This document shows, piece after piece, positions 18,591 through 18,734 of a DNA stretch of 50,774 nt. Source of the DNA: Armatimonadota bacterium. GTDB lineage: Bacteria > Armatimonadota > Hebobacteria > CAIYQO01. A program made the position numbers and the translations under genes. The stretch's first letter is position 1, and the number at the start of each line of letters is the position of its first letter. Below the pieces are notes generated by a model. It was given only the letters and a program-made list of their open reading frames with translations, made no database searches and had not been told where the DNA came from. The stretch lies in NCBI GenBank assembly GCA_029553475.1, contig JAKPKV010000186.1:71808-122581 (forward strand), given 5' to 3'.

Positions 18591-18619
18591 AGTATAACGG
18601 GTGGGGCAAGCGCGGTCAA
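18591..18619 (-). promoter_or_regulatory. Promoter of the XRE-cupin gene, predicted leaderless
   Basis: TTGACC (18619-18614) and TATACT (18596-18591) on the minus strand are 17 nt apart. The -10 ends 9 nt before the ATG, leaving at most a few untranslated bases. Confidence 0.72.
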
Positions 18620-18623
18620 TTTT

Positions 18624-18639
18624 GTGCTGGATAACGCAC
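18624..18639. promoter_or_regulatory. Candidate operator 1 (GTGC-N8-GCAC)
   Basis: A 16-bp palindrome with GTGC and GCAC ends and an 8-nt centre (TGGATAAC), 4 bp upstream of the XRE -35 box. It shares ends and total length with the site at 18719-18734. Binding by the XRE-cupin protein is inferred. Confidence 0.5.
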
Positions 18640-18701
18640 GACATGGATGGGACGGACATGATGACCACGCGTGTCACGGCGATATTTCTTTCGCCCGGCG
18701 A

Positions 18702-18730
18702 TTGACAGCAATGACAACGTGCACTAAAAT
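18702..18730 (+). promoter_or_regulatory. Promoter of the GH1-to-GH2 operon
   Basis: A perfect TTGACA (18702-18707) and TAAAAT (18725-18730) are separated by 17 nt. The predicted start near 18737 gives a 55-nt leader to the ATG at 18792. The -10 box lies inside the palindrome at 18719-18734, so a bound repressor would block it. Confidence 0.75.
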
Positions 18731-18734
18731 GCAC
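18719..18734. promoter_or_regulatory. Candidate operator 2 (GTGC-N8-GCAC), overlapping the GH1 -10
   Basis: A palindrome with GTGCA and TGCAC ends around CTAAAA, covering the -10 hexamer of the GH1 promoter. Its centre is 95 bp, close to nine helical turns, from the centre of operator 1, so a DNA loop between the sites is geometrically possible. Confidence 0.58.

Follow-up and report, generated by a model that had tools for sequence, protein, structure and literature searches.

Paired GTGC-N8-GCAC palindromes predicted as operators of an XRE-cupin regulator divergent from a glycoside hydrolase operon in Armatimonadota

We analysed a 50,774-base stretch of DNA from an Armatimonadota bacterium (the window) in which two GTGC-N8-GCAC palindromes, O1 and O2, accompany the promoters between a regulator gene and a divergent glycoside hydrolase operon. 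O1 and O2 are probably the operators of the adjacent regulator, which we predict to be a local, autoregulated repressor of the GH1-GH42-GH2 operon. This prediction provides a concrete operator and target for a common, mostly uncharacterised regulator family, and does so in a phylum with few studied regulators.

Two palindromes in a divergent promoter region

The gap between the regulator start (18581, minus strand) and the GH1 start (18792, plus strand) is 210 bp long (18582-18791). The regulator promoter, TTGACC-N17-TATACT (18591-18619, minus strand), has 10 of 12 consensus matches and the operon promoter, TTGACA-N17-TAAAAT (18702-18730, plus strand, with TAAAAT at 18725-18730), has 11 of 12, bearing out the strong back-to-back promoters claimed in the first-pass annotation; they are the top two among five promoter-like sites in positions 9000-28900 (shuffle mean 2.5). 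TTGACA and TAAAnT, with a spacer of 18, can also be read in both regulator loci of genome G002, from the same genus. Transcription usually starts about 7 bp from the -10. Because the regulator's TATACT lies only 9 nt from its ATG, a hexamer and a distance kept in all three same-genus loci (18582-18596 in the window), we infer that the regulator mRNA is probably leaderless or nearly so.

The palindrome O1 (GTGCTGGATAACGCAC, 18624-18639) starts 4 bp past the -35 of the regulator promoter and O2 (GTGCACTAAAATGCAC, 18719-18734) covers the -10 of the operon promoter. Their centres, at 18631.5 and 18726.5, are 95 bp apart and fall at about -47 from the inferred regulator start and at about -10 for the operon. 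A palindrome beside the left -35, another over the right -10 and the 95 bp between their centres had all been described earlier, and that description was correct in each detail that we checked.

O1 and O2 are the only GTGC-N8-GCAC occurrences in the window, and since this count of two is close to the 2.3 expected by chance (shuffle mean for the whole window), the motif alone proves nothing. The support beyond chance comes from position, as both sites lie within one 210-bp gap: in dinucleotide shuffles of this gap, two exact sites were found in none of 2000 and at least one in 20 of 2000.

An HTH regulator with a cupin-like C-terminal half

The regulator gene (18003-18581, minus strand) encodes a 192-aa protein that combines an XRE-type HTH with a cupin-like C-terminal half, as judged by profile matches and predicted structure. 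Of the two parts of the XRE-cupin assignment made in the first-pass annotation, the HTH is secured by a match to HTH_3 (PF01381; 54.6 bits, cut-off 23), while the cupin half scores just under the Cupin_2 threshold (PF07883; 26.4 bits, cut-off 27.2) and is cupin-like in its strands and folds. In the structural model, helices occupy residues 16-79 (blocks within 21-70 at pLDDT 85-97) and seven strands lie in the C-terminal half at 115-187; the Foldseek matches include single-domain cupin-like folds such as 1v70 (rmsd 2.4 over 82 columns). Modelling thus makes a C-terminal cupin domain very likely, though it stays below the curated score. By eye, this half appears to lack the usual metal-binding histidines.

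The sites are conserved with the regulator in one genus

A protein search across 291 genomes of the phylum (E ≤ 1e-25) identified the regulator in eight genomes with nine copies, including that of the window, and the upstream gaps of all nine were read. Three loci belong to one genus, namely the window and two loci that both come from G002 (G002a and G002b), whose regulators are 86% and 78% identical to the window's. O1 starts at position 124 in all three oriented stretches, the order and place of O1 and O2 are unchanged, and O2 overlaps the -10 in each. Both sites are exact in G002b, and O1 of G002a (GTGCTGGATAGTGTAC) has one arm mismatch. The O1-O2 spacing is 95 bp in the window, 95 bp in G002a and 97 bp in G002b.

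Between the window and G002b, O1 and O2 are each identical at 14 of 16 positions, the alignment of the intervening spacer (79-81 bp) is no different from that of shuffled sequence (its score was attained in 69 of 300), and 49 of 96 fourfold-degenerate positions in the regulator gene agree. Between the window and G002a, the sites are identical at 13 of 16 and 14 of 16 positions and the spacer at 31 of 79 without gaps; no shuffle of 300 reached the full spacer score, and 21 of 300 did so once the final 20 bp, which include the -35, were left out. As this spacer is less eroded, the contrast between sites and spacer is weaker for that pair. Between the two G002 loci, the sites match at 11 of 16 and 15 of 16 positions, with 23 shuffles in 300 scoring as high as the spacer. 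On these alignments, the palindromes are conserved together with the regulator and the promoter region.

More distant homologues and residue 50

Two further genomes of the same class, G009 and G010, encode regulators 46-47% identical to the window's, each with one exact site (G009, GTGCTGATTAACGCAC; G010, GTGCTGATTACCGCAC) about 150-200 bp upstream of the regulator. Near the regulator start, both genomes have a further, imperfect repeat whose centre lies about 165 bp away from the exact one. For each of the five motif-bearing loci, shuffling gave one or more exact sites by chance in 14 to 29 of 2000 cases (about 1%). Because the sites are kept in the same-genus loci despite an eroded spacer, and one exact site occurs in each of two distant genomes, chance is, by this comparison, a poor explanation for the O1/O2 pair.

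The gaps of the other four homologues (G001, G226, G243 and G258) contain no GTGC-N8-GCAC, even when one mismatch is allowed. G001 is in the same family as the source organism and its regulator is 48% identical to the window's, with a different palindrome: its upstream DNA has a perfect inverted repeat of 13 bp around a 5-bp centre (L093, 8010-8040), so that the same family has another candidate operator. The G226 gap contains a 14-bp inverted repeat at 93% with an 11-bp centre beside a TTGACA (L127, 9174-9212) and the G243 gap has the inverted repeat TGTGTA-N6-TACACA. No convincing inverted repeat was seen in the G258 gap.

In an alignment of the nine proteins, residue 50, which follows the invariant Glu49 and adjoins the recognition helix, is Arg in all five proteins whose loci have the motif, whereas the four without it have Ser or Ala; with nine related proteins, this amounts to a correlation. 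Among more distant homologues, the exact motif was found in 0 of 30 loci (L012-L041 of 80) within 450 bp upstream of the match, and by eye several of these carry Arg at the Arg50 position, so Arg50 is not sufficient. Together, the nine homologues form a natural series for studying a change in recognition: five go with one operator type, and for the other four we saw different repeats or none.

The motif across the genome and the phylum

The bare motif occurs at 93 places in the 5.27-Mb source genome as compared with 319 for a reversed control that was not dinucleotide-matched. On the refuting check suggested in the first-pass annotation the answer is mixed, and the bare motif is not enriched. 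The scan for the motif upstream of other carbohydrate genes, also suggested there, revealed no regulon. Searches with the bare motif, an AT-core motif and a longer O2-like motif (up to 2 mismatches) found no further promoter-linked carbohydrate site; the latter two patterns were written after the sites had been seen, degenerate sites escape such searches, and the surroundings of the bare motif were viewed for a few of the places listed (about half of the 93). The AT-core motif occurs at five distinct places, two of them O1 and O2, two inside script-predicted ORFs and one on contig C119. The perfectly palindromic GTGCTATATATAGCAC on C119 (L136, 2638-2653) lies in a poorly resolved stretch away from recognised carbohydrate genes. 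Given a motif that is not enriched and the lack of a visible regulon, the system would be local and not genome-wide.

The paired pattern was found at 18 places in 16 of the 291 phylum genomes; the reversed control gave about 62, a sum that we made from the printed rows. A tblastn check of 16 of these places (L121 and L137-L151) recovered the regulator only at L121, in G002; the window is the 17th place, and one in G056, which has no locus, lay outside the check. A second pair in the source genome (contig C5, 105 bp) has other cores, with one site in or by the start of what by eye is a nitrilase-like gene, and its 3.1-kb stretch contains no regulator homologue.

Gene content of the operon and its relatives

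The claim of a glycoside operon is confirmed by its gene content of GH1, GH42 and GH2. The first gene encodes a GH1 beta-glucosidase (18792-20192, plus strand; TIGR03356, 491 bits, cut-off 478.5) and is followed on the same strand by a 611-aa protein (20215-22050) without a Pfam or NCBIfam match at E 0.001, part of which, by eye, resembles class-I mannose-6-phosphate isomerases. Next are a GH42 beta-galactosidase-like protein (22051-24246), the operon member common to G009 and G010, a URO-D/MtaA-like methyltransferase family protein (24395-25540; profile matches), a prenyltransferase-type alpha-alpha toroid protein (25537-26643; match below cut-off) and a GH2 glycosidase (26646-28421; profile matches). 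Downstream of the operon, a 2294-aa ORF (28902-35786) by eye resembles a large helicase/nuclease protein. On the other side, an iron-containing alcohol dehydrogenase gene (16749-17942, minus strand; profile matches) is possibly co-transcribed downstream of the regulator.

Both G002 regulator copies face a divergent URO-D-family gene instead of GH1, and the G002a product shares 23% identity with the URO-D protein of the window. With a URO-D-family gene in the place of GH1, regulation would extend beyond plain glycoside hydrolysis. In G002, which is 78% complete, no close GH1 orthologue was found (best 46%, much as for a second paralogue in the source genome at 47%); its GH42 orthologue is 81% identical, at the beginning of a contig. 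The divergent side in G009 and G010 includes GH42, a gene judged prepilin-like by eye and a Gfo/Idh/MocA-type gene (by Pfam match in G009 and resemblance in G010); G009 also has a DegT aminotransferase there. The G009 GH42 is 64% identical to the window's over 649 positions. DegT aminotransferases are likewise among the neighbours in G001, G226 and G243, the last of which also has a xylose-isomerase-like protein. Judged by these neighbourhoods, the regulator group accompanies carbohydrate-type genes while the first target changes. GH42 is present in 6 of the 14 class genomes and the regulator in 4 of those 6 (G007 and G008 have GH42 and no regulator at E 1e-25), so GH42 is not strictly tied to the regulator.

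Proposed mechanism and alternatives

An HTH protein with a cupin-like half is encoded directly beside O1 and O2, and for this reason the two sites are most likely its own operators. We propose that a regulator dimer on O2 would cover the divergent -10 and keep RNA polymerase off the GH1-GH42-GH2 operon, and that another dimer, at O1 immediately before the regulator -35, would adjust transcription of the regulator. A glycoside breakdown product bound by the cupin-like half may then release the protein from the DNA. We observe the sites, the way they overlie the promoters and are conserved along with the regulator, and the genes present; the dimer binding, repression, autoregulation and ligand are inferred. 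The ligand-controlled switch proposed in the first-pass annotation is thus partly supported, through this comparison and the glycoside hydrolases that the operon encodes. The role of O1 is less certain and may be autoregulation or that of a second loop anchor; its position at about -47 could fit activation as well as repression.

A more elaborate version, in which a tetramer would bridge O1 and O2 into a small loop closing both promoters, with the spacing of about nine turns under selection and residue 50 helping to set the GTGC preference, strikes us as doubtful though conceivable. The 95, 95 and 97 bp in the three same-genus loci agree with looping without establishing it. Their constancy next to an eroded spacer hints at a role for distance, but with only three loci from a single genus the same could result if no insertions had happened to occur, and 97 bp departs by roughly one fifth of a helical turn. 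The near-nine-turn spacing noted in the first-pass annotation is only suggestive within the genus and does not extend to G009 and G010, where about 165 bp does not correspond to full turns. If the imperfect repeat of these two genomes is a site, they rule out helical phasing as a general rule.

It seems to us very improbable that O1 and O2 are chance matches in a region conserved only for its promoters. Single counts would allow it, with 2.3 matches expected in the window and a low, unenriched number in the genome, as would the paired pattern, at 18 places in 16 of 291 genomes versus about 62 in the reversed control. However, O1 overlaps no promoter hexamer and is still present in every same-genus locus (in one with a single mismatch), the arms of O2 reach beyond the -10, no gap shuffle of 2000 held two exact sites, and among the 16 paired places under tblastn the regulator was present only at L121. 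It is unlikely that the sites belong to another, unlinked regulator to which the XRE-cupin protein is merely a neighbour. Short palindromes of such a kind are generic, but these follow the XRE-cupin regulator over five loci in four genomes even though the first divergent genes are of three kinds (GH1, URO-D family and prepilin-like), they are missing where the recognition region of this protein differs, and AT-core sites are almost absent elsewhere (five distinct places in 5.27 Mb, two of them here).

The conservation of O1, which touches no operon promoter element, would suit an activator or dual regulator acting on the operon from O1 at about -105, with O2 only tuning. We find this improbable, as O2 lies over the -10, where occupancy by a protein usually means repression, the operon promoter, with 11 of 12 consensus matches, ought to work without an activator, and the characterised relatives are inhibitors in the part of the Pseudomonas study available (PMC7901475). 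We therefore retain the local repressor as the preferred reading.

Comparison with known systems

PuuR of E. coli (NCBIfam NF007408) is the best-matching named family, matched by all nine homologues at E ≤ 0.001. An identity as a PuuR equivalog is ruled out by a score of 62.3 bits against a cut-off of 211, and no polyamine genes were recognised among the eight genes scanned. The top Foldseek match is 1y9q, an HTH_3 family regulator of Vibrio cholerae (178 columns, E 2e-11, 25% identity), which is second best by sequence profile over the HTH part only; its rmsd of 14.7 indicates that the domains are placed differently relative to each other in the model. GTGC-N8-GCAC was not found in print when searched as a motif string in four spellings, which is weak evidence of absence, and the portion of the PMC12565409 main text available has no GTGC string.

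The Pseudomonas XRE-cupin proteins are described, in the available part of PMC7901475, as inhibitors that act locally, each with a motif of its own and with palindromic sites beside its gene. Our regulator resembles PauR, PsdR and ErfA in its HTH plus cupin architecture, its palindromic site in the gap by its own gene and its metabolic neighbours; the Pseudomonas targets given there are mainly amine, peptide and small-molecule genes, whereas those here are glycoside hydrolases (PMC7901475, in part). By this analogy, the regulator most likely fits the PauR/PsdR-type XRE-cupin repressor pattern and would be ordinary in kind, with no new class of mechanism.
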